From Artemia franciscana (lineage: Eukaryota; Arthropoda; Branchiopoda; Anostraca; Artemiidae), in NCBI RefSeq assembly GCF_032884065.1, contig NC_088864.1, positions 18,604,409 to 18,668,408 on the forward strand: a stretch of 64,000 bases of DNA. Reading direction: 5' to 3'. The translations under genes and the position numbers were made by a program. This document shows, in pieces, positions 866 to 53,423 of the stretch; position 1 is the stretch's first letter; every line of letters starts with the position of its first letter. The notes beneath the pieces are model-generated. The model was not told the origin of the DNA. It saw nothing but the letters and a program-made list of their open reading frames with translations, and ran no database searches.

Positions 866-1139
866 TGCATGCGAAATTTTAAGTTTTGCATTTTAATAAT
901 CACGAACTGAAAAATCCACTTGTGGTTAATTTCTGTTTTTAGATTTTTGTATTTTAGGGGGTTTGTGGCCAGTAATGTCAATATACCAGTTCAAACAGAA
1001 AAAACACATAGCCGATTTCAAGGCTGGGACCCGTCACTCGGTAGGCTTGTATATATTGATTTGCGTAGTCACTTGTAATCTAGCTGCAGATAATGTTATA
1101 ATTCTATAACACATAATTGTTTATAGGGCACTAGCTGTT

Positions 1140-1162
1140 GGGGTGGCGCTTCGCGCCACCCC
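1140..1162 (-). repeat. Helitron 3'-terminal hairpin
   Basis: A perfect palindrome of 10-bp GC-rich stems with a 3-base loop (GGGGTGGCGC / GCGCCACCCC) lies 5 bases before the terminal CTAG on the - strand. A second GC-rich imperfect hairpin lies just inside (about 1163-1200). A hairpin close to CTRR is the standard Helitron transposition terminator. Confidence 0.85.
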
Positions 1163-1350
1163 ATCACCTAGTTGATGGGGCGCTTCGCGCACCCCCCAAG
1201 CCCCCCCCCGCGCGCGTAAGTCGTTACGCGCCATATTAGTTACGCGCCATTGTAGTTGTGTCCCTGTGTCCCAACTGTGAATATAGATAGATTTATATAT
1301 GTGTTTCAAACTACGTAAAAATTGCGAATATACATTTTTGGCTTTCCCAC

Positions 1351-1515
1351 TACTGGGAGCTTTCCGTTTCCAATTGCCAGCAATTGATCTGAAAATGTTT
1401 GACCAGAGTCACCGTTTTGCAATCGGACACGCATATTTGTAGTTAATTTTAATATTTTTACGTGTGCCCATAAATTAGAATTTTTCAGGCAAGCATTCAT
1501 TTCGTCTGCAGGAGT
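1351..1515 (-). pseudogene. Displaced piece of Helitron helicase
   Basis: The - frame reads DEMNACLKNSNLWAHVKILK, then LTTNMRVRLQN and DQLLAIGNGKLPV. In intact Helitron helicases this segment lies between the Walker B region and the sequence RIQLPADFC. In this element RIQLPADFC is at about 2385-2420, but the segment that should precede it is missing there and is found here, about 1 kb downstream. Copies of the protein's C-terminal tail (VVYSQFLRS-like) lie on both sides at about 1311-1350 and 1517-1556. Confidence 0.75.
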
Positions 1516-1574
1516 TAAACTACGTAAAAATTGCGAATATACAACATTCTTGGCTTTCCCATTGTCTGGGCATA

Positions 1575-1690
1575 TACAAAGCCGTATGTACTAATAATGA
1601 CGTCATATACAAACGCTCTTTTTACAAACAAACAAACATGCATACACACAACTCGTTTTTATATAGATAGATAGATAGATAGATACAATA
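1575..1690 (-). repeat. Possible second Helitron 5' terminus with GATA/TATC expansion
   Basis: On the - strand the sequence reads (TATC)n, then TATATAAAAACGAGTTGTGT and a TTTG-rich stretch. This closely resembles the 5' end of the surrounding element (TCTATATATATAAAAATAAG then GTTGTCTGT). It could be the start of a second, very short Helitron (about 1680 to 1131) joined head to tail to the first. The simple-repeat expansion blurs the exact TC start. Confidence 0.5.
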
Positions 1691-1694
1691 CAAA

Positions 1695-3583
1695 TTAACT
1701 GCGTAAAACTTGCGAATATACAACATTCTTCGCTGTCCAATTGTCGCTGCATATAAATAGATTGTCAGGTTTACCGACCCTCGAACATGCAACGTACAAT
1801 TGTCCATGGGAAAAACAATCAGTATTAAGATCTATACCACATTTTTCTAATGATTGACCTTGAGCTTTGTTAATGGTGATTGCAAATGCTAATCGAATTG
1901 GGAATTGCAATCTTTTAAATTGAAAAGGCAGATCCGTTGGAATCATGGAAATGCGAGGAATAAGAACATCCTCACCCTCAAAAGGCCCTGTCAAGATTGT
2001 GGCCTCTATTAGGTTTTCCATTGTTTTTTTTACGGCAAGTCGCGTGCCATTGCATAGCTTTGGTGGGTTGATATGTCTTAAAAGTATTATTGGTACGCCT
2101 ATTTTTAGTTGTAGCACGTGTGGTGGAAACCCTGAAAGATCTATGGAATTTAAAAATTCAGATGGATAATTAACCACTTCATTTGGTTCCAAAACTGTGT
2201 CGACTGACTTGTAAAGGACTCCCTGGTTTCGAATCTTGGTCAAAACAATATTGTTGATTTCGTGGACGTCTATATTTTTGTGTGCGAGAATCGCTCTTTC
2301 ACTTAGCCATTTATTATTTTTATAATTTTTTAGAATATTCGGAAATACTTTTTCAATCAATTCATTTTTGGACGTCACTAAATTACAGAAATCAGCAGGT
2401 AGTTGTATACGTCCTGAAATTGAGTCTATCGTATCATAAATGTCTTTTTGTTCCGACGTTAACTTGGAAAGGTTATTTTGTACATACGACAATAGATCAC
2501 TCGTACTGTAACTTTGTTCACGATCCAATTCTACATATGTCGAAACAGCAGCGATACGGTTAGGTGAAGGTATTCCCAAATCCTGAAGAGGTTTGTTTGC
2601 CATACGTACGCACAAATCTTCTATAATAACTAAAGTGTAGTTATAAATTTCTGATGTAAAATCAAAAGTCATATCTGACTTCTCTAACTGTTTTCGATGG
2701 AGTATATCTTCGGACATTTTTGACTTATATTTTTCCCATAACTCTGTAGGAGCTGATGGAGAGCAAGTTGTTAAAATGATGCCAAACAATGCACGAATTT
2801 GACTTGGGGTTGACGTTTCGCACGCGTCATTGATGCAGTTATCCCAGTGTTGGTCATTCTCCAATAAATTCGGAGCTTGGCTTGCACTACGGTAAGTGTC
2901 ATGTATAGTACCGTTTACAGTTCTCAAATACTCAAAGGATGTCGGACCGGGTACATTCACCAAAAGCGGGCGTAGAAAGAAGCATTCATGTTGTTTGGGG
3001 TGAACGGTGTAGAGTCTTCCTAACGTGGTATCTTTGAAGATGGTAGGTTGGCCGTCGACTGACTTACCCTGTTTTCGACGTTCAAATACTTTATTTTTAG
3101 TATTCCACGTGTAATACGAAGGCACTTCAGTATACAGCAGTTTTTTTGCAAAAGAATCATTTTTGCAAAGCGAAAAAAAGCTGTTAATTTTGTATCCGGT
3201 GGATTCAGGGCTCTTTGTTGCACGTTGGTTTCCGAGAAATAAACACGTTGACCATTCTGTAAATGTACCGCTAAGTGAACAACAGCTGGACTACGTTCAT
3301 GTATCGGAAATGAAAGAATTCGCCAAACAGCTTCATTACTGCTTATGTATCTTCCAGCCTGATATTGTACGATTTCGTCGAAATCTTTGATTTCGGGCTG
3401 CAAGCCAAAAACTGCCATGTCACTGCCTTTGTTGACGTATTTACATATGTATTTGATTGCCTTTACGGAGTTACAGTATTCAACGTTTATGTGTGCATTA
3501 AATGTTTTTGATAATAATGGGGAATATGGAACAACCCACTGGTTATCTACTTCGATGGTGGTACCGTTGCCATTGTAGGTTCT
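1695..3583 (-). pseudogene. Helitron Rep/helicase remnant
   Basis: Two - frames overlap near 3020-3160. The first (3583 to about 3130) contains YICKYVNKGSD, the catalytic-tyrosine motif of Helitron Rep, then YQAGRYISSNEAVWRILSFP. The second (3125-1695) contains the Helitron helicase linker (LGIPSPNRIAA, LTSEQKDIYDTI) and ends with AITINKAQGQSLEKCGIDL and YVACSRV, which are Pif1-type motifs V and VI. A frameshift separates the two. The region from Walker A through Walker B is deleted between EQKDIYDTI and SISGRIQLPADFC. The HUH His motif upstream is absent. The protein is therefore dead as nuclease and as helicase. Its last residues occur in three diverged copies downstream. Confidence 0.85.
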
Positions 3584-3659
3584 TCAGTCACTTTACAATT
3601 AGAAATTTCTCTTTCAACGGTCTTCTTACAGTTAAAAATTTGTCTTTGAACGATATTCT

Positions 3660-3835
3660 TAAATACCTGTGTCCTGGTCGTCATTTATATTCCCTGTGTC
3701 CCGGTCGTCATTTGTGTCCCGGTATCCCAGTCTGTAATTTCTCTTTGAGTGTCCCGCTCGTTATTTATATTCCCTCTGTCCCGGTCGGCTTTTGTGTCCC
3801 GGTCTGTAATTTCTCTTTGAGTGTTTTTTCTTTTT
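3660..3835. repeat. Minisatellite inside the Helitron
   Basis: Units built on GTGTCCCGGTC and TCGTCATTTATATTCCC recur, and a longer unit containing TGTAATTTCTCTTTGAGTG appears twice (about 3737 and 3808). On the - strand these read as Arg/Asp-rich repeats (DRDTGNINDD-like), so the array may be an expanded low-complexity part of the Rep/helicase frame. Confidence 0.65.
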
Positions 3836-3887
3836 AGTATTTTTTAGCTTTTTACATTTTTTCTTTTTTCAGTTTTCTTTTTCTTCT

Positions 3888-4238
3888 TTATTTTTCAGCT
3901 TCACTATGAAATACATATCGCCGAACCTTTGTTTTTTTAACTAAAATCTGGTAGGCATTGATGACCTTATCCAAGTCAAAACCCCAAACCCAATCATCAT
4001 CGCTATCATTTTCAGTTTTGATATGTTTTGACTCTCGCTGTCCAGGTGGATCTTCATCTAACTGCGCGGTTTTGCGTTCTTTAGTCTCAAGCCTGTTTCC
4101 TTACTGTTCTTTTGATTCCTCGGCACGCTTTCTTTTCTGACTTTCTCTATCAGCAGCAAGTTTTTTGGCATAGACTCTTTGAGCATCTTCATCGGCTTTT
4201 GCCATTGTAAGCTCATCAGTCATTTTAAACTTAAACAT
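3888..4238 (-). pseudogene. Helitron N-terminal coding remnant
   Basis: The frame starts MFKFKMTDELTMAKADED and continues with a Lys/Arg/Glu-rich stretch (ESQKRKRAEESKEQ). It meets one in-frame TAA at 4101-4103, then stays open (DDDWVWGFDLDKVINAYQIL) to a TAA at 3888. Such basic, repetitive N-termini precede the Rep domain in many arthropod Helitrons. It lies just inside the element's 5' end, as expected. Confidence 0.65.
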
Positions 4239-10192: not shown

Positions 10193-30250
<20,058 letters not shown>

Positions 30251-35660: not shown

Positions 35661-37660
35661 GGGTCAGAATTTCGCAAGCAAATTTTTTGATGAGTCGATC
35701 AGAAATTTCACACTACTTCCAGTCGAATTTGCACGTGGAAACTCTAAAACTACAAATTTTGCATTAGGGATGCCTGGTTATAATTTTATGTTGACTATGT
35801 GAGAATGGATTAAGGCACAAGTTGACGCAAAGAATCAACAATACTAGAGATAAATTTAGTGAACATCAGCTTCTTTGAAATTTTACTATGAATTATAAAG
35901 ATAACAAGAATTTTTTTTACCGGTTATGTAAAATATAAGATACGTAATATAAACCTGCAAGGAGACATCCGAATATCATTTGTACATGCAAAGCTGTTGT
36001 CAAAAGGAATACTCTTGAGCAAGCTTGGGTGTTGACGCTACTTCTCAAACTTTTATGTCGTATCAAGTAAGGTGGCAATGTAAAGTTGTTCCGATCAAGT
36101 AAAGTGGCACATCTTAGTAACGTTCTGCTGTAACACCGGTAATAAAAATATTAAACTACGTTTTATTTTACCTTTGATAGTTATCTTACTGCTTCTTGAC
36201 TACTATTGGAGACAGGTAAAAAAAAAAACAGAAGTTCCTGAGTGGACCATGGTCATGTTACCGGTGAAATTTTTATTCTTGGGGAGTTTGCAAGTCTTTT
36301 TTTTTCAAATAATACTGCATATGTTAAAGGGGGGTGAACTGGGGTTAATCGTCCCATATAAAATATTGGCACTGTATCAGGGCCAGATCTAGGGGGCTGG
36401 GGAGGGGAAAAGGAGTGAGCTCCCCGGGGGAGGCAAAACAAGCTAAACCGGTAATATTTATGGGCAAAATATTAATATTTACAGTATTAATGGTTCACTA
36501 GGGGTGGCAAAGTTTACGTTTGCCCCCCTCACCCTCGAGAAAAGACCTAACTCCGACTGTACTATTTTAGATATTTCATAGTCGTTTTTTTGTTGCAGGC
36601 TGCTTAGACAACATATGTATTTCTCGTTAAATAATAGTAAAAGTGTAGGGATGGTATTGCCTAGGATTCGTACTCCTCTTATAAAATATTGAGGTTAAAT
36701 TCAGTGTTTTAAAGTTATATATATTTTTCCTCACGTAATTGTGTATATTTACGCGCATACTGAGTATTATATGTACTACACGTACTGCTTATTATACGTA
36801 CTACTTGTTGTTGTTAGTCGCCAATTTTCCTATGGTCCTCCTTTAAATGCTGCTAGGGTAAACAAATAAAACCTATCTACTTCAATCCCTTAGATATTTT
36901 AGGCAGCTTTGTGAAAGGATGAACTAAAATACATTTCAAATTCACTATCTTCGTCCATCAAGTAATATGATAAATGCAACAGGGAAGATTCTGGGGGTGA
37001 TAACCCTCATAAAGAATATTGTATTTTACCCTGTAGTTTATTCTTGTATCTTGTCTCTATTAAACTATTTGACTTAAGCTTTAGTTGTACTCTGTTCTGT
37101 AATGTAAACAATCGATTTTATTAACAAGCTGTAAATTTTCAATAAGAATACAAATCTTGCACTACATTGATCTGATCCTTTCCCCTAACGTAAAAAAAGT
37201 AAGATGAGAAAAATAACTTTAGAATTTTGTGTTTCTGTATTTATAGTGACCATGTTGCTTTTGCATCCTTCTGCTAAAATGGCTAGATTGAGAAGTGTTT
37301 TCTTCTAGAATTTTAGATCATATACATAGGAACAATAAGGTCACTCGCTATAGAATAAGAAGCATTTCGTTGACAAATAATCTAAATTTGTAAACATGGA
37401 ATCTTAAAGGAAAAAATTGCTTAGGCCAAGCTATTAAACGACATATTACGTGAGACTGGATGAGTTGAAACGTTTATAGTAAGTTTGTATCACAAATCTG
37501 GTATTGGAAATTCTCATTTCTATTGAATCATGCTCGCAAACTTAAATTGTCAGCTTAAAAACCTCTAAGAATGAGCAATAATCTAGAAGGAACTTTTAAT
37601 TCGAAAGTAAACGCAAAAACAACGCACACAAGGAATATGGACAGTCTTTTTAATTTTTAA
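35661..37660. other. Intergenic DNA, no gene seen
   Basis: AT-rich. The segment 36370-36540 (GGGCCAGATCTAGGGGGCTG, then CCCCTCACCCTCGAG) resembles the GC-rich ends of some MITEs, but no paired terminus was found. Confidence 0.35.
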
Positions 37661-37835
37661 AATTAAATAAAAAATAAGTTTTTTTATCCACAAGTAAGGA
37701 GCGACAATAAAACTTAAAACAAATAGAAATCGTTTCGTATATGAAAGGGGTTGCCCCCTCCTCAATGCCTCGCTCTTTACGCTAAAGTTTGACTCTTTCT
37801 CACAACTCTACTTTTTAAAACAATAAAAAACTTTG
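37661..37835. repeat. Solo foldback arm of the 1.7-kb family
   Basis: It has AAGTTTTTTTATCCACAAGTAAGGAGCGAC to CGCTCTTTACGCTAAAGTTT and the loop (GACTCTTTCTC...TTTTTAAAACAATAAAAAAC), then stops at 37835 where the second arm should begin. This fits deletion between arms or truncation at the hairpin tip. Confidence 0.75.
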
Positions 37836-37910
37836 GATGCCGGATGGATGGATGCCGGGATATATCTATGATCGAATCAATAATGTGATTTCTGAGGAAA
37901 TTAACATATT

Positions 37911-40870: not shown

Positions 40871-41426
40871 TTGGTAAAGGAGGACTAATGTTGTGCAGAA
40901 ATCCTATCAAATCCTCTAGACTTAATGAAAAAGCCAAAGTAGTTCTCTCCCCCTTCCTTGGAAGAATAAAAAGCAATGCCATAGAAGAGCATCAACCAAT
41001 TTCAAAGCCACAAGGACCCCAAATGATGCAAGCCCATGTGTTCTTTGTAGAAGGAGAAGAAGGAAAAAGTTTTAACATTAGGATCACCTAATTTTACCAG
41101 AATAAAATGTACCACTGGATATGATCAGCTCTTCTGAAGGAAGCATTATAAATGATAAAAGGTAAATTTGTAGTTGACAACATTGTTCTGTGGTGGTGCA
41201 GTGAGATTAACCTCACCTTAGTAATATGAGACCCAGATATCATAACTGGATATAGCAATACACTCCAGGGCCAATGCAAGGACCATAGTAGTCAAGAGGA
41301 ATCATTAATATGACATGTATGGGCCTAGATTAGGGGCTATTGAGGAGAGAACATGTTAAGAAAGCAATTCTGTAATCTGCAGAGTAAATTGTAGTTAACA
41401 TATTTTGACTGCAACTGGAAATTGAG

Positions 41427-42540
41427 AGGGCTAGTGTCCTTTTTAATAGTTTAAAGTGATTGAAGGGCAACCAGCCCCCCCCCCATTCCCATCATTTACC
41501 CAAACACAGCCAATTAAAACTTTGAAATAGCCATTTTTTCAGCATAGTGAAAGGTCTGAAAATTATGTCTTGGAGGATGGCAACCCCCCAACCCTCAGGG
41601 CAAGGGTTGCAAGTTATGCCCTAGGAGCACAAGGTTTTTATGGAAAGGGTGGTTATGTAAACTTTGGAGTGGGCTCATTTGATTGGTAATCAGAAATTAC
41701 AGTGCTCTTTTTAAGAATCAAAGTGATTGGACAGCAGACCTCCCCCACGCCCATCATTTCCCCAAAAACTTGAATCCAAATTTGAGAAAACTATTTTGTT
41801 CAGCATAGTTGAAAGGTCCAGTTGTTGAGTATTTGATGATGACAACCCCCCCACAGCCCAAAGGGCAAGGGTTGTAAGTTATACTGTGGGGTAAGTAATA
41901 TTTAAATGGAAAGGGTGGTGGTATGAATTTGGGATTGGGCTCATTGGATTGGAAACCAGAAATTCTAGTGCCCTTTCTAAGAATCAAAGTGATCAGAAGG
42001 CAGCTATCCCTCCATCACACTCCTCATTCCCCTAAACACATACACTAAAAATTTTGAGATAGCCATTTTGTTCAGCATAGTTGAAAGGTTGAGTTATTGA
42101 TTATTTTGATGGAGGACATGTAGCCCACTCCTCCCTTACACCATACTTTTTTCCAAATCCATCCAACCAAGATTGTGAGATAGCCATTTTGTTCACGATA
42201 GTTTAAAGAGCATATGCTAATAGATTCAGCATGGACAGAATCCTCCAGAGCCCAGGGGCAAGGGTTGTAAGTTATACCCAGGGCACATAAAGTTTTTATA
42301 GAACAGATGGCCATATAAACTTCAGATTGGATGAAGTTATTTGATTGGAAGTCAGAAGATCTAGAGCCCTTTTTAATAGTCAAAAGTAAATGAAGGGCAA
42401 CCAGCCACTCCCCCACAAGCCAATTGTTCCCCAAAATACGTCCAGTCAAAATTTTAAGAGAACTATTTTGTTCAGCACTATTGAAAGGTCCAGTAATTAT
42501 GTCTTTGGGGATGTCAATCTCATCACAATCCTCAGTTTAA
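41427..42540. repeat. Satellite of about 270-bp units (left part)
   Basis: Landmarks AGTG(C/T)CC/CTTTTTAA--GT-AAAGTGATTG at about 41430, 41698, 41967 and 42360, and GAGATAGCCATTTTGTTCAGCATAGTTGAAAGGT with GGGCAAGGGTTGTAAGTTAT in each unit, mark at least four units (two of them 268 bp apart, and one with an internal partial duplication). The unit resembles the core of the 1.7-kb foldback family (compare 52140-52390). Confidence 0.85.
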
Positions 42541-42559
42541 GGCTTGTAAGTTAGATATG

Positions 42560-43853
42560 TACAATGCTTACATATATTATATGTTATTCAGAAAGGTATG
42601 CATGTTTGAACTTTATTATTGATTTATCTGAAAACCTACCATACAAAAGCAATAAGAAAGGGCAGTAAAATAAAACGATAAACAATTAATATTGTAAAAT
42701 ACAAGACAAGCAAATATACGTTTATATTTATATATATTTAATTGATTAATACAGGCAGTGGTAATAAAAAAAGACTTGTAAGAAAACGAGTATAAATACA
42801 AACGTTTACTTCCTAGTGTGCCCATTATCTTACCAGTGCAAGATATGGCTCCAGTCATGACAAATTAATCATTAAAATTCACAATACTTGTTGAAATGGC
42901 AGTAAATGAATCAGTTATACTATAATGAATAAACACAAACGAGTTTTGGGTCTAAGGTGAGAGCCAAAAGAGATATGCAAAAAAATCTTCAAGACAGCAG
43001 AACATACTATATATGCTGCAGAACAATAACATTAAACAACCTTACAAGAATTGAATTATTATTATTATTTAAAATTATTGAAAAATTCGTCACAATTAAA
43101 CACACATCAAGATGGAGCATAGAAAAAGAAAAACACAATACATCACTGCTTAAAAATGTGGGACCAACCATCTATTTTCCTATTATGTTTTGCTATCTGT
43201 CTGGCAATGGCAACCTCTGGGTCAGCAACCTTGAATTTCGCAATAGCAAGCTAATTTCTATACCATGGAGGCAGATGAAGCAGATAGTTGGCAAAACAAA
43301 GAACATGGATCAGATTTTACTCTTGTCTGTTTTAGTTAGGAGTTTCCAGAAGGATGCAGTGTAGAGGATATTGGGAATGGCAACAGCATTGTATACACTT
43401 GCTAGAAGAGGTTGGTTGAATTGAAGTTTACAAGATACAATGGAATTGTAAGCTGCTGAGATACTATGTCTGATTTGTTCAAGAAGAAGTTTTTGGGTGT
43501 GTCAGATAGAAGAAGTATAGGATGACCTGGATACATAAGGTGATCTGTAGGTTGAATAGAGCTAGATCCAAGCATGATGAAAGGGGCAGAGGTATCTGTT
43601 TTCCAGTTAAACAGGAGAATATTAGATTTGGAAGAGTTGAATTCAAGCCCAACTTTCTGATATTCCGTTTCAAGGATTTCAAAAGTTTTGGTGATATGTT
43701 GATGAGGTTTAGAATGTTGTCAGCATAGCACACCAAGGAAAGATTTACAGACAAAATCAGTGAAGGTGGGCACAAATATTGTGTTTCCATTACATAGTTA
43801 TTAAAGAGGTCAGGAGAGGTGACAACACCTGGACGGGCCCCTTTCTTAACTGG
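42560..43853 (-). pseudogene. LINE, 3' part (palm to C-terminus), split by insertion
   Basis: The - strand begins PVKKGARPGVVTSPDLFNNY at 43853, continues LSLVCYADNILNL (catalytic YADD changed to YADN), ISAAYNSIVSCKLQFNQPLL and SVYNAVAIPNILYTASFWKL, then breaks up. 42560-42960 is AT-rich and is probably the 3' UTR. The preceding half of the protein is at 48229-49012, and the break falls exactly within the VHNLxPVKKG sequence. It is the same family as the fragments at 39.7-40.9 and 55.1-55.9 kb. Confidence 0.8.
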
Positions 43854-44968: not shown

Positions 44969-45795
44969 ATTAAATAAAAAAAAGTTTTTTCAACTAAAAG
45001 TAAGGAGCAACATTAAAACATAAAACGAGCAGAAATAATTACGTATATTAGGGGGTTGTCCCCTCGTCAACACCTTGCTCTTCCTGCTACAGTTTTCGGC
45101 ACTTTAATAAAAGTGACTTATTGTTCTAATTAGACAACCCTTGTTTTTCAGGAGTCGTTTTGAAGGGATTTGGACACAATTTAAACTTAAGCGTAAAGAG
45201 AGAGGCGTCGACAAGGGGCAACCCCCTCATATACGCAATAATTTTATATTCGTTTTAAGTTTTAATGTTGCTCCTTACTTTCAGTTGTAAACGCTTATTT
45301 TTTATGTTTAGTTTCGGATCGTTTTTTAATTAAATGCCAGGATACCTGGCTCCACTTCACAGAAAAATTCCCCGCCCCCACAGAAATATCCGCTGGACAA
45401 TCCAATCCTGCCGAAAATTTGCCCCGGACAATTACCCTCAACATCTCCACGCGTAAAATCGAATCGGTAACGAGAAAGCAAGACACGTGAAGAAATTTCC
45501 TATAGTAATTCTGGCAAATCCCCACAGTTTAAAGTTTCCCCTGAAAAGTCCACCCCCTAGAAACTTCCCTCTTCATGGAAAATTTTCCCCTTGCAAAATC
45601 CTCCCAGCAGAAAATTTGACTTCTCTCCCCACCCCTAAAAATGTATGCATACTTCCCAATAACAATTACTATATGTAAACAATTGGCCAGTTCTTTTGAT
45701 ATGTTTATTGCTATCAAAATTCCTTATTTTAGACTATTGGTTGCTATTGAAACGGGTCGCTCCTTACTTACAGTTCGTTACCACGAACTGTTTGA
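44969..45795 (-). mobile_element. 1.7-kb family copy with internal deletion (- orientation)
   Basis: Both ends are present: TCAAACAGTTCGTGG at 45795 (- strand) with its hairpin, and ATTTAAT at 44969. It keeps the end of the core (45470-45690, C-rich on the + strand) and one foldback (44975-45285), but lacks about 900 bp of core and spacer. Length 827 bp. Confidence 0.8.
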
Positions 45796-45896: not shown

Positions 45897-47595
45897 ATTA
45901 AACAAATAGAAAAGGTTTTTGAACTAAAGTTAGGAGCAAATTTAAAACTTAAAGCAAATTGGAATTACTCTGTATATAAGGGGGACTGCTCCCTTCTCAA
46001 CGTCTTGCTCACTAAACATAAGTTTCAGGGCTTTGAATGGATTTTTTCAATTAAGAATTTTCTTTAGAAATCTGGACAAAATCCAAACTTCTCAGTAAAG
46101 AGTAAGGAGCCAAGGAGGAGAGAGCCCCCTTCATATAATGAGTAATTTGTTCAAATAGGTTTCAAATCTGTTCCTTGCTTTCTGTTGAAAAGCTCTTTTC
46201 TTTTATTCGATTTCTGATTGTTTTCAGAATCATACCCGGGCCTAACCAAGATATAATTTGAGGTACCGGCCCGTTAAATCCCTGGTTAATTGCTTTTGAA
46301 ATGTATAAATCAATAATTGTATGTTGATTAGTACCGTCCTACGTTTAAATTTGCAATATCAATTTTGGATAAAATTTAAATATGCTTAAAAAATTGGCGA
46401 AGAATAGTAATCTTGGTAAAAAGTCTTGTTACTATTCCTACTAAAGAATTTTGGTTGGATGAAAAGGAGTATTAATGTTATTATGGATGGAAATTCTGTG
46501 AGACTTTTGATCTTCTGCATAACTGAAGCCATCACAGTCTCTACAATTGGATTTTCTTATTGATAAATACATTGCATAAATTTGTTTAAATACATTGAAG
46601 TACTTCAAATAAATAGAAAGAGAAAAATATTACCATTTAAAATTGCCGAAAACGAAGTTCCTAGCAGTATTTGCCACCCCAAAGAAATTTCCTGGTGAAG
46701 CTGATGATGGCCTGCCTTGCCTTATCCACCTATGTGCTGGTGGACATGGGAATGTAATATTTTCGCTGTGTAGTTTCTACTCCCCCCTACCTCTTTCAAC
46801 ATTTATCTGAAGCCTCATGAAGAGTAAGCAGTTTGTCCATTAATCTACCCTATCCCCAACTGAACAGTGACCCCCCCTTATTATAGCTGATACGCAATTA
46901 CTGATCACCAAACGTAGCCTAATTTCATTACATTTGGCTACTTCTTTTACATTAGGCTTATCAGTTTGCATTACTTCTTTTGCAACTGTGAACTCTAAAA
47001 TATCGTTATAGATACTTTATATCAATTAGTTTCTCAGAATTTTAAATTGATCGCAAATTCGTATTTTTGGGGGTAAAGTTGTAGTTTGGTTCCCTAAAAT
47101 GGCAGAAACCAAAACCTTTCCCAACCTGTCTGGTCACTTAAAAAGAGCTTTAAATTTACGTTTGAATGAGCTCTCTCCCAGTTATCTTGGACCTTCGAAT
47201 TTGATACAATCATCCCTGAGGAAAAGCGAAACAACTAAACATGCATCGACGATGTTTCTTCTTAAAAATAATACGAAGCTCTATATTTTGAGGACTGGAG
47301 CTCGAAACCTCGACGGTAGGGTTCTCTGATATGCTGTATCTAATAAATGGATTTTCAATAAGATGGCTTCCCTTTTTGGGAGTGTTCCCTCTTTTTTCAA
47401 AAACTAAGGCCAAATTTTTCAGATTTTTAGTTTTGAGTGGGCAGTAATAAACTGAAAGAATTTTATATATTTAGAATCAGCATAAAAAAAACAATATTGC
47501 CGGTGTAGCAATTGTCTTGAGAATCCCAATTTTAGTCTTGGTGAATATTAGCCCAAGTCACTTATTAATTCCATTTTTTATCACAAACTATTTGA
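45897..47595 (-). mobile_element. Old, diverged copy of the 1.7-kb family (- orientation)
   Basis: A diverged foldback occupies 45900-46220, and a diverged 5' core 47095-47595 (TCAAATAGTTTGTGA end; GGTCACTTAAAAAGAGCT; TACAATCATCCCTGAGG). The distance between the ends (1699 bp) matches a full copy, but the middle (46230-47050) is not recognisable, so it may be two fragments. Confidence 0.55.
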
Positions 47596-49012: not shown

Positions 49013-49015
49013 ACT

Positions 49016-50910
49016 CTCCTATACCCATCATTTCCCCAAGCACATCCCGTCAAAATTTTGAGATAGCCATCTTGTTCAGCATAGTTGAAAGGTCCAAAAA
49101 TTAAGTCTTGAGGATGAAAACCACCCCTCCCCCCATAACAGTCCTCACGCCAGGGGTAATGAGTTATGCCCTGGGGACATGTAATGTTTTTATGGAAAGG
49201 GTGGTCGTATAAGCTTCTTTGGGGGCTTATTGGATTGGTAATCGGAAGTTTTACTGCGCTTTAACCTGTTAACTTGTGTCTGTGTGAGGGGTAACTAGCA
49301 CTCTCCCACACCAGTCATTTCTCCAAACATGTCCAATCAAAATTTTGAGATATCTATTTTGTTTAGCGTAATTGAAAGTTGCTGAAATTATGTCTTTGAG
49401 GATGACACCCCCCATAGCCCTTATGACAAGGGTTGTAAGTTACACCCTAGGGGCCTAAAAGTTTTTATAAAAAGTGTGGTTGTATAAACTTTAGAGGGGC
49501 TCATTGAATTGGTAATCAAAAGCTATAGTGCTCTTGTTAAGAGTCCAAGTAAGATCGAAGGGTAGATACCCCCCCACACACATACACGTTGTATTTTCCC
49601 GAAATGCCTCTGATAGAAATTGTAAGATGGTTATTTGTTGTCGTAGAAACTTCGAAAAGGGCTCATTCGATTGAAAATCGAAAGGGCTAGTGCCCTTTTT
49701 AATAGTCAAAAATAATTGGAGGTTAATCAGCCCCCCCCACCACACCCATTATTTTTCCAAAGACTTCAAATTAAAATTTCGAAATAACTATTTTGTTTGA
49801 TGTAGTTTAAGGATCCAGAGAGTATGTCTTTGAGGATGAGAACACCTCTCCCCCCAAAGCCCTTAGGGAGAGGGTTGTAAGTTATGCCCCGAGGACATAT
49901 AAGGTTTTAACGAGAAGGATGGTCGTATAAACTTTGGATGGGGCTCATTGGATTGCAAATCGGAAGTTTAAGTGCCGAAATTATCAGAGGGTAGCTACCC
50001 CCTCCCCATGTCATGTTTTCCCAAATGCTTCCGAAAGAGATTTTTAGATAGCCATTTGTTCCAAAATAGTCCAAAGATAATATAATAACAAGGCCTTTGG
50101 GGTTGACACAATCCCCCAGTTCAGGGAGTAAAAGTTGTAAGTTATGCCCCAGGGGCATGTAAGGTCTTTATGGAAGTAATGGTCTTCTGAACTTTAGAGG
50201 AGGCTCATTTGATTTGAAATGCATAGTTCTAGTTCCCTTTTAAGATTCAAAACTGATGGAGGGAAAAGGTCACCCCTCCCTGACATCTTCTTTTCCCCAA
50301 ACGCATTTCATTGAAATTGTGAGATATCCCTATTGAAACCAATAGTCCAAAGAGCACATAACAATGTCTTCAGTAATCAAATATAAAGAATGTTTAGGTG
50401 GATGTTGAACTAAATCAAAACAAACTATGAGCATGTGAACTTTCAAAAAGGTGACAAAGCAGTATCTCAAGAATAACTTATATTTATTAATTTAGACCCT
50501 TTAGAGTAAGTTGTGGGGAATTTTAAACTAGCCAGAAGGCACTTTGTGTATAGTTTAAGTACTACCATTACTTTAATAAATGATGCTAAGGGTATTAGGG
50601 TGAAACTTTCAGAGAACGTTTAGGGGGAACTTCAATTAAACGAATAAACTGTATGTATGTAGGTTTTCAAAAGGGCATATAAGCAATTTCATAGGCAGCA
50701 CCAATCTCTAATAACTAGAAATATTGAAACATTTACAGGAACTAATTGGATTCAAAATTGAAATTCTAGTGCCCATTCATTTTGCAAACACATCCAATCA
50801 AAATTTTGTTTTTTGTTCAGCATAGTAGAACGGTCCAGCAACTATATCTTTAGGGATATTCTTAATGTCAACCCCCCGCAATAATGCAATTGGGCCATTA
50901 TGCCTTAAAA
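49016..50910. repeat. Satellite of about 270-bp units (right part)
   Basis: These are the same units in the same orientation as 41427-42540: CCCATCATTTCCCCAAGCAC, AATTTTGAGATAGCCAT, TTGTTCAGCATAGTTGAAAG, GGGTTGTAAGTTATGCCC. Starts of the AGTGC-CTTTT word fall near 49251, 49521, 49686, 49966 and 50230. An isolated diverged unit occupies about 50740-50910, separated by AT-rich sequence from 50350. Confidence 0.85.
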
Positions 50911-51702: not shown

Positions 51703-52075
51703 TCAAACAGTTCGTGGTAACGAACTGTAGTAAGGAGCGACCCGGCTCAATAGTAACCAAAACTCTAAAAATGGAATTTTGATACCAATAGCTACATCAA
51801 AAGAATCGCATTTTAATTCCGGTTTTAAATATATAAGTTTCATCAAGTTTAGTCTTACCCATCAAAAGTTACGAGCCTGAGAAAATTTGCGTTATTTTAG
51901 AAAATAGGGGGAAACGCCCCCTAAAAGTCATAGAATCTTAACGAAAATCACACCATCAGATTCAGCGTATCAGAAAACCCTACTGTAGAAGTTTCGAGCT
52001 CCTATCTACAAAAATGTGGAATTTTTTATTTTTTGCCAGAAGGTAGATCACGGATGCGTGTTTATTTGTTTGTTT

Positions 52076-52113
<38 letters not shown>

Positions 52114-53423
52114 CCAGGGGTGATCGTATCGACCCAATTGTCCTAGAATGTTGCAAGAGGGCTCATTCTAACGGAAATGAAAAGTTCTAGTGCCCTTTTT
52201 AAGTGACCAAAAAAATTGGAGGGCACCTAGGCCCCCTCCCACGCTAATTATTTTCCCAAAGTCAACGGATCAAAATTCTGAGATAGCCATTTTATTCAGC
52301 GTAGTCGAAAAACCTTACAACTATGTCTTTGGGGACGACTTACTCCCCCACAGTCCCCGTGGGAGGGGCAACAAGTTACAAACTTTGACCTGTGCTTACA
52401 TATAGTAATGTTTATTGGGAAGTATACAGGCGTTTTCAAGAGGATTTTTTTGGTTTGGGGGAGGGGTTGAGAAGAGGGGGATATGCTGGGGGAACTTCCT
52501 TCGAGAATTTGTAATGGGAGAAGAAAATTTCCATGAAGGGAGAGCAGGATTTACTAGCATTATTTAAAAAAAACAATTAAAAAATAAAAGTGAAAAAGCT
52601 TTTTCAGCTGGAAGTAAGGAACAGCAATAAAACTTAAAACAAACAGAAATTATTACCCATATGAGGGGCTCACCTCCTTCTAATACCTCGCTCTTTACGC
52701 TAAAGTATTTTCGGTAATTTCAACTACTTATTCTACGGCTTTTGTGATTCAGGGGGTCATTCTTAATGAATTGGGATAAAATTTAAGCTTTAGTGTAAAG
52801 AGCGAGGTACTGACGATGGGGCGAATTCCCTCATATATGTAATAAAAACATGAGAATACAAAAGTTCTTTACGTAAGCTAATTTATAAGTTACGTAAATC
52901 TTTTACCAATAAATAAAATTAAAAGTTCTAGTTGCCTTTTTAATTAACCAAAAAATCGGGGGGAAACTAGGCTTCGTCCCCCGCTCTTTTTTTCTCAAAA
53001 TCATTCGATCAAAATTATGAGAAAGCCATTGAGCCAAAAAAAAAAAATATGCAAATTTCGTTTTGATTATTCCTCTGCGGAGAGCCAAAATCAAAACATG
53101 CATTGATTCAAAAACGTTCAGAAATTAAATAAAAAAAACAAGTTTTTTCAACTGAAAGTAAGGAGTGACATCAAAACTTAAAACGCACAGAAATTACTTC
53201 GTATATGAAAGAGGCTGCTTCCTCATCAACGCCCCGCTCTTTACGCTAAAGTTTTTTACTGTTTTAAAAAGAAGAATTGAGAGAAAGAGTCAAACTTTAG
53301 CGTAAAGAGCGGGGCGTTGATGAGGAAGCAGCCTCTTTCATATACGAAGTAATTTCTGTGCGTTTTAAGTTTTGATGTCACTCCTTACTTTCAGTTGAAA
53401 AAACTTGTTTTTTTTTATTTAAT
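51703..53423 (+). mobile_element. Complete 1.7-kb hairpin/foldback family copy (+ orientation)
   Basis: It starts TCAAACAGTTCGTGGTAACG with a perfect 9-bp hairpin, then the core (satellite-related unit at about 52140-52390), foldback I (52570-52860), a spacer (52880-53130), and foldback II with perfect 117-bp arms (53138-53254 and 53292-53408) and a 37-bp loop. It ends ATTTAAT. Length 1721 bp, against 1722 for the 23.7-kb copy. A T tract of about 37 bases interrupts the core at 52077-52113. No protein-coding frame. Confidence 0.92.

Follow-up and report, generated by a model that had tools for sequence, protein, structure and literature searches.

An abundant non-coding repeat family of Artemia franciscana with Helitron2-like features and a long terminal foldback

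In the portions of their description that are accessible, Helitron2 elements begin with T at a 5' end that forms a terminal hairpin, and carry asymmetric inverted repeats of which the 5' copy lies 0-2 bp and the 3' copy about 20-30 bp from the ends, and a 3' hairpin separates the 3' inverted copy from the end (Bao and Jurka, 2013; PMC3627910). It was proposed there that pairing of the inverted copies opens the 5' hairpin and marks the end of the round. Two Helitron2-type elements of Fusarium oxysporum, FoHeli1 and FoHeli2, appear in the available text as autonomous elements of 5-6 kb with a TC start, a 5' hairpin that holds the 5' inverted copy at the very end, and an AT-rich 3' end with the 3' inverted copy 38-51 bp from it. 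They insert beside AT without duplication, and joined ends were reported for at least one subgroup (PMC5148889).

Non-autonomous Helentrons include HINE/DINE-1 elements, and DINE-1 has the highest copy number of any repeat in D. melanogaster. According to the available excerpts, these elements are non-coding and reach high copy number, have a subterminal inverted pair, a 5' inverted repeat, a microsatellite and central repeats, and leave no duplication at a TT or T-rich target; in a mite the 5' copy is found 2-4 nt from the end (PMC4067079, PMC7492417). Helentrons and HINEs do not modify the target site and have an autonomous RepHel partner with the same termini, as far as the accessible text goes (Thomas, 2014). 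Subterminal repeats, an inverted repeat and a microsatellite are likewise described in excerpts on oyster HINEs, to which no partner was linked (PMC7492417).

A 64,000-bp window of the A. franciscana genome (C2:18604409-18668408) was analysed together with the whole assembly (1,270,528,402 bases in 6,468 contigs); coordinates given without a contig are those of the window. A sequence-only reading had described a 1.7-kb non-coding repeat in this window and concluded that it fits no standard class. That conclusion was too strong, as the anatomy of the repeat is close to published Helitron2/HINE elements. Two full copies do lie where that reading placed them, namely copy A (51703-53423, plus strand) and copy B (23674-25390, minus strand), which are 87.5% identical. 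By empty-site logic the unit in copy A, the reference, is TCAAACAG...ATTTAA at 51703-53422, flanked by W and T. Its parts follow in the order head with hairpin, T-rich microsatellite region, core 1, foldback I, core 2 and foldback II, all on the plus strand. The TTTG-rich, T-run microsatellite (52061-52113) differs in length between copies. Core 1 (52175-52291) and core 2 (52916-53030) are direct repeats with 79.5% identity over 117 bp. Both of the foldbacks proposed earlier were borne out. Foldback I (52582-52845) is internal and the weaker of the two, with arms about 77% alike over 69 columns and a long asymmetric loop (z -5.0; none of 100 shuffles as good). Foldback II (53124-53423) is extreme: it is flush with the 3' end, and its arms of about 140 bp are 96.5% alike (z -35.3; none of 200 shuffles as good). 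Since the 5' arms of the two foldbacks are 73% alike, the second half of the element looks like two diverged core-plus-foldback modules. Mean conservation is 0.94 at consensus positions 1001-1050, in the loop of foldback I, versus 0.77 at 1551-1600 in foldback II, and foldback I apparently keeps its loop in one orientation.

Searching the source genome, a check which the sequence-only reading had suggested, the 46-bp 5' end (the head) was matched 43,427 times with up to three mismatches (21,698 + 21,729); the same head read backward gave no match (0 + 0). Linkage to the tail was followed in the 30 exact heads listed first on C1, a positional sample which, consisting of exact matches, is biased to young copies. 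A tail was found behind 23 of the 24 testable heads at a distance of 508 to 2,057 bp, and in 19 cases at 1.66-1.80 kb (1,656-1,802 bp). Twenty-one heads were followed for at least 2 kb, with a tail in 20 and none in L031, and three others hit the tail sooner. The remaining six (L020, L023, L024, L034, L037 and L038) were read for 1.55 kb, show no tail there and are outside the 24. One of the 23 tailed heads, L015, has its foldback in common with another copy. This linkage and the sharp ends support one coherent non-coding family with fixed ends, as had been claimed. The alternative that its parts occur independently fails for intact heads; headless foldback pieces do occur, for example in the window.

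Sampled copies are 77-93% identical to the window copy over the main match, and the nearest neighbours of six best-match copies reach 98.6-99.1% identity, which points to a recent burst. The family ranks among the major components of the A. franciscana genome, and its share would be about 5.8% if all 43,427 heads were followed by 1.7 kb of element. In the accessible part of the genome paper, 67.26% of the genome is given as repeats and 8.81% as rolling-circle elements (PMC11492255), and this 8.81% might include the present family. No such family is named among the matches listed from full-text literature or in the available portions of two Artemia genome papers, and strings of the family sequence gave 0 matches in the text of papers. 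The exact head 34-mer gave 0 matches in the viral and 0 in the prokaryote genome collections. Neither full copy has a long reading frame, the longest stop-to-stop stretches being 84 and 93 aa, and within the window no Rfam match was found at the gathering threshold.

Aligning copies with their flanks, as the sequence-only reading had proposed, resolved the exact ends as W|TCAAACAG...ATTTAA|T. Between copies in unrelated flanks, similarity breaks off abruptly at T|CAAACAG and at ...ATTTAAT|, and some copies end in ATGTAAT. Across the genome, T precedes the exact 34-base head in 21,193 of 21,401 cases and another base does so in 208; among heads chosen without the exact pattern, T comes first in 13 of 16. 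Of the 21,193 genome-wide cases with T, 14,992 (70.7%) have A in front of it, versus the 27% expected from window dinucleotides. In a table of 27 of the 31 copies (L011, L014, L015 and L025 were omitted, their blast ends being unclear or odd), T occupies position -2 in 18, and position -1 is A or T in 26.

When the joined flanks were compared with uninterrupted paralogues, the empty sites showed no duplication past one T. The junction is gap-free in all 33 spanning matches of L003 (the best being 100% identical), in 49 of 49 for L029, which is inserted within another family copy, in 77 of 91 for L016 and in 39 of 46 for L005, where the paralogues shown have no T at the junction place. Most spanning matches have a gap within 6 bp at L036 (3 of 46 gap-free), L007 (14 of 46), L022 (15 of 60) and L032 (12 of 46). 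The L003 insertion counts as one event, its satellite flanks being shared by L002 and L008. On these three unplaced contigs the inserted copy lies in a satellite array with a period of about 223/447 bp, in which the empty site is perfect. The junction thus holds a single target T, which could belong to the left end, belong to the right end or be duplicated. Terminal inverted repeats at both ends with a target duplication are absent, and so is a CTRR 3' end after a hairpin located 10-12 nt from it, a Helitron1 feature; the family ends in TTTAA(T), and in these points the first description stands. Heads on C7 that are preceded by A, about 6.07 kb apart, were considered as a circle junction and rejected, as the 171 bases examined there are an ordinary head with its first base changed. 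The four heads of this kind at C7:32516331-32534596 reflect the tandem duplication of a larger unit.

The 5' hairpin (51707-51728, plus strand) lies 4 nt from the 5' end and has the 9-bp stem and GGTA loop already seen by eye (z -3.7; none of 200 shuffles as good). Local alignment of the head with the reverse-complemented tail revealed a subterminal inverted pair. Its 5' copy, AACTGTAGTAAGGAGCGAC (51723-51741, plus strand), begins about 20 bp in and overlaps the 3' arm of the hairpin, and its 3' copy (53377-53396, minus strand) lies 27-47 bp from the 3' end. In the window copy 17 of 20 columns are alike, and 5 of 1000 shuffles were as good. The motif GTAAGGAGYGAC is unchanged in 26 of 31 tails and has one or two changes in the remaining five. 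Because the first bases of the 5' inverted copy are the 3' arm of the hairpin, the hairpin and the inverted pairing are mutually exclusive. A small 3' hairpin, with stems of 4-5 bp recognised by eye, is found in some tails and is missing in some subfamilies.

The first base T (which could be element or target), the 5' hairpin and a 3' inverted copy that begins 27 bp inside the 3' end are shared with Helitron2, whereas the 5' inverted copy lies further in, over the hairpin arm, and the 3' hairpin is weak, with stems in some tails and none in others. The closest published anatomy, as far as the available text shows, is that of FoHeli1/2: the family has the TC start, the 5' hairpin, an AT-rich 3' end with the inverted copy some tens of bp inward, insertion beside AT without duplication and joined ends, but it is non-coding, 1.7 kb long and has two long foldbacks (PMC5148889). 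With HINE/DINE-1 elements, in the excerpts available, it has in common the lack of coding capacity, the high copy number, the subterminal inverted pair, the absence of duplication, a 5' inverted repeat, a microsatellite and central repeats; it differs in preferring A^T (71%), in a 5' copy about 20 nt in and in its 300-bp terminal foldback (PMC4067079, PMC7492417). The subterminal repeats, inverted repeat, microsatellite and lack of a linked partner also resemble the excerpted oyster HINEs (PMC7492417).

Copies joined head to tail, with one T in common at the joint, were searched with the family tail (506 bp) followed by the head (300 bp). Among the best 40 of 2,093 candidates scored, 36 run through the joint in direct orientation and the other four are tails only, one of them the window copy. 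As the first look favours places with both parts, 36 of 40 is a lower bound on joints and not a rate, and a few joints may duplicate one another (those on unplaced contigs and two on C83). Random insertion exactly at the 3' end of another copy would be expected to give about 3.5 joints genome-wide, assuming uniform choice among A/T^T sites. Two joints on C83 are separated by 1,490 bp. That at C1:8239503-8240278 falls between two exact heads, whose positions 8238280 and 8240007 differ by 1,727 bp, the length of one full element. Pairs of exact 34-bp joints on one strand are found on C3 (752 bp), C4 (510 bp) and C5 (886 bp). A further 1,076 junction-like places with up to two mismatches, of which the first 100 listed are exact, were not used as a count since AT-rich flanks reach two mismatches by chance. 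The joints fit rolling-circle run-on or circles with joined ends, and support such behaviour without proving it. Alternatively, new copies could have inserted repeatedly at the A^T end of the element itself.

The sequence-only reading had also recommended looking for an autonomous partner with the same ends, and none was found among the loci compared. Autonomous canonical Helitrons are abundant in this genome. A search with PF14214 (best 150 of 7,436 candidates scored) yielded 30 loci, which resemble each other (8 of 30 among the matches listed). The element at L089 has a full frame of 1688 aa and ends in GGTGGCGCGAAGCGCCACCCCAACAGCTAG|T, a hairpin plus CTAG. In the window, a rearranged copy of this abundant autonomous Helitron1 (about 1130-4193, minus strand) contains Pif1-type helicase frames at 1695-3583 and ends in a hairpin plus CAGCTAG|T. 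These two 3' ends (L089 and the window copy) are both canonical and share nothing with the family, which lacks the hairpin-plus-CTAG end. Like L089, the family uses an A^T site; of the Helitron1 TC/A^T rule it shows the TC start and the one-T junction, and A precedes the T in 71% of cases, not always.

A second search, whose query was a Rep stretch, gave 36 matches to a second RepHel lineage among the best 150 of 2,737 candidates scored, with frames of up to 2,701 aa. At L095 this lineage combines PF14214, PF20209 and PIF1. It is a natural candidate for the partner. Flanks compared across more than 21 kb, a span that stops short of the ends of the lineage, showed no end in common with the family. 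Two family copies are found 3' of one second-lineage locus, one of them at a place where a related locus is uninterrupted, and the 3' region of the lineage matches family profile positions 1018-1134 weakly (E 1e-11), which may be an old relic. At L095-L104 (C3:52027800-52049300, C76 and C6), stretches of more than 21 kb around the 2,701-residue RepHel frame are about 95% shared where compared; they are either a giant Helentron-like element or the product of segmental duplication.

The family is probably a non-autonomous DNA transposon with rolling-circle behaviour of the Helitron2/Helentron-like kind. It is not formally placed in Helitron2, because the 5' inverted copy is too far in, CTRR is absent and the partner is missing. 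The Helitron-like relation first hinted at by a TC start after A or T is strengthened by the A^T preference, the inverted pair and the head-to-tail arrays. For its movement we infer an enzyme, a single-strand intermediate and a role for the foldback. An HUH (RepHel) enzyme supplied in trans would nick at TC, and a single strand ending at TTTAA would be peeled off. Its ends would be joined, or synthesis would run on into a second round, and the strand would then enter an A^T site. Following Bao and Jurka, the end of a round would be marked when the two inverted copies pair and the 5' hairpin is thereby opened. The 3' inverted copy lies inside the long terminal foldback, and this fold may act as a stop or as a replication-pausing structure.

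Foldback II also recalls the parvoviruses, whose terminal hairpin is flush with the 3' end, has its loop in two orientations and primes a second strand from the folded 3' end. In such rolling-hairpin replication the 3' end of the element would fold back and prime its own second strand, and resolution would invert the hairpin and even out its arms. In agreement with this, self-complementarity extends to the last base in 26 of 31 copies, and the arms within a copy are 93-100% identical as against a mean of 0.87-0.91 across copies (29 of the 31 listed copies, L015 and W17378 being omitted; 122 bp compared). Moreover, the loop lies one way in 15 of these copies and the other way in 14, and 72 palindromic sites genome-wide have a single foldback flanked by core 2 on each side. 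In a tree built from the element body minus foldback II, however, loop orientation is strongly clustered, with at least three changes versus a shuffled mean of 9.6 and 0 of 500 shuffles as low (28 copies; L015, W17378 and L029, which was too short, omitted). The loop is therefore not flipped in every round. L036 and L030 are single flips inside clades of opposite orientation, and occasional inversion through recombination or hairpin copying remains. The identity of a copy's own arms is higher in only 13 of 29 copies, with three ties, and the best cross-copy value equals or beats it in 16. As those best values come from close relatives, the arms change together along lineages, not necessarily within each copy. 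The head-to-tail joints fit circles better, and pairs that share a foldback can come from recombination; L015, tried as a tail-to-tail dimer, proved to join two different subfamilies within the loop. Unlike parvoviruses, the family has no virus genes, and its loop orientation is inherited, not randomised. Rolling-hairpin replication is thus considered unlikely. Tail-to-tail pairs sharing one foldback are seen at palindromic sites such as C1:5467502-5467815, and C4 has three such sites at a spacing of about 8.96 kb. A terminal foldback with like arms and an occasionally inverted loop is absent from the accessible parts of the Helitron2/HINE descriptions. A hybrid Helitron-parvovirus-like cycle, with a rolling-circle start at the 5' hairpin and self-primed synthesis from the giant 3'-terminal hairpin, is an equally doubtful proposition. 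If true, it would have copied the terminal foldback upon itself, keeping the arms alike and occasionally inverting it, and would have multiplied to tens of thousands of copies within a single crustacean genome.

Another enzymatic class, for example a single-strand Y1-like system, could have acquired Helitron2-like ends by chance. No partner was found, and a hairpin at the end with T-adjacent insertion would also suit IS200/605-like chemistry; the TC start, A^T preference and head-to-tail copies nevertheless match Helitron-type elements, which are abundant here, and this explanation has a small but real chance of being right. Cut-and-paste movement of a TIR or foldback (MITE-like) transposon by a transposase would account for the large foldbacks and for the solo foldback pieces in the window. 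This reading has a very low probability, as neither end is an inverted repeat of the other, nothing is duplicated past one T and the terminal foldback is found at one end only. It is harder still to credit a retroposon or SINE-like repeat, which the high copy number and T-rich 3' end might suggest, when both ends are fixed, 23 of 24 testable heads are linked to a tail, no duplication extends past one T and no Rfam match was found. Read as a rolling-circle transposon, the family has exactly defined ends, a target rule that has been measured and numerous natural copies joined together, and could thus be used to test the way in which Helitron2-like elements terminate a round and give rise to tandems.

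Within the window, a profile built from 29 of 30 aligned copies (L003 omitted) covers 10,105 of the 64,000 bp. Several pieces that the sequence-only reading had listed as partial or old copies could be refined. Those at 15970-16574 (plus strand; a headless old copy with profile positions 579-1126, then the tail) and 28194-28769 (minus strand; only the 5' part, profile 1-600) are indeed partial. The piece at 17378-18785 (plus strand) proved by alignment and profile to be a near-complete copy with an internal deletion, and that at 44969-45795 (minus strand) an old, internally deleted copy in which head, inner piece and tail are recognised. The foldback near 45897 is not simply a loose arm: it lies at 45901-46225, about 1.7 kb from a head at 47595-47121 on the minus strand, and the two probably belong to one old full-length copy (45901-47595), of which the middle (46226-47120) is not recognised by the profile. 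The solo arm reported at 37661 was recovered by the profile as a foldback piece at 37660-37836 (plus strand). Matches to the core only (profile positions about 389-713), which are counted in the covered length, form two series on the plus strand, five at 41416-42606 and seven at 49014-50857, mostly 140-300 bp apart. They are too diverged for Tandem Repeats Finder, and represent an old tandem either made from the family core or a donor to it. Exons with a peptidase M24 domain, which we take to encode methionine aminopeptidase 2, are found at 19749-20525 and 28935-29537 (plus strand), with family copies between them.
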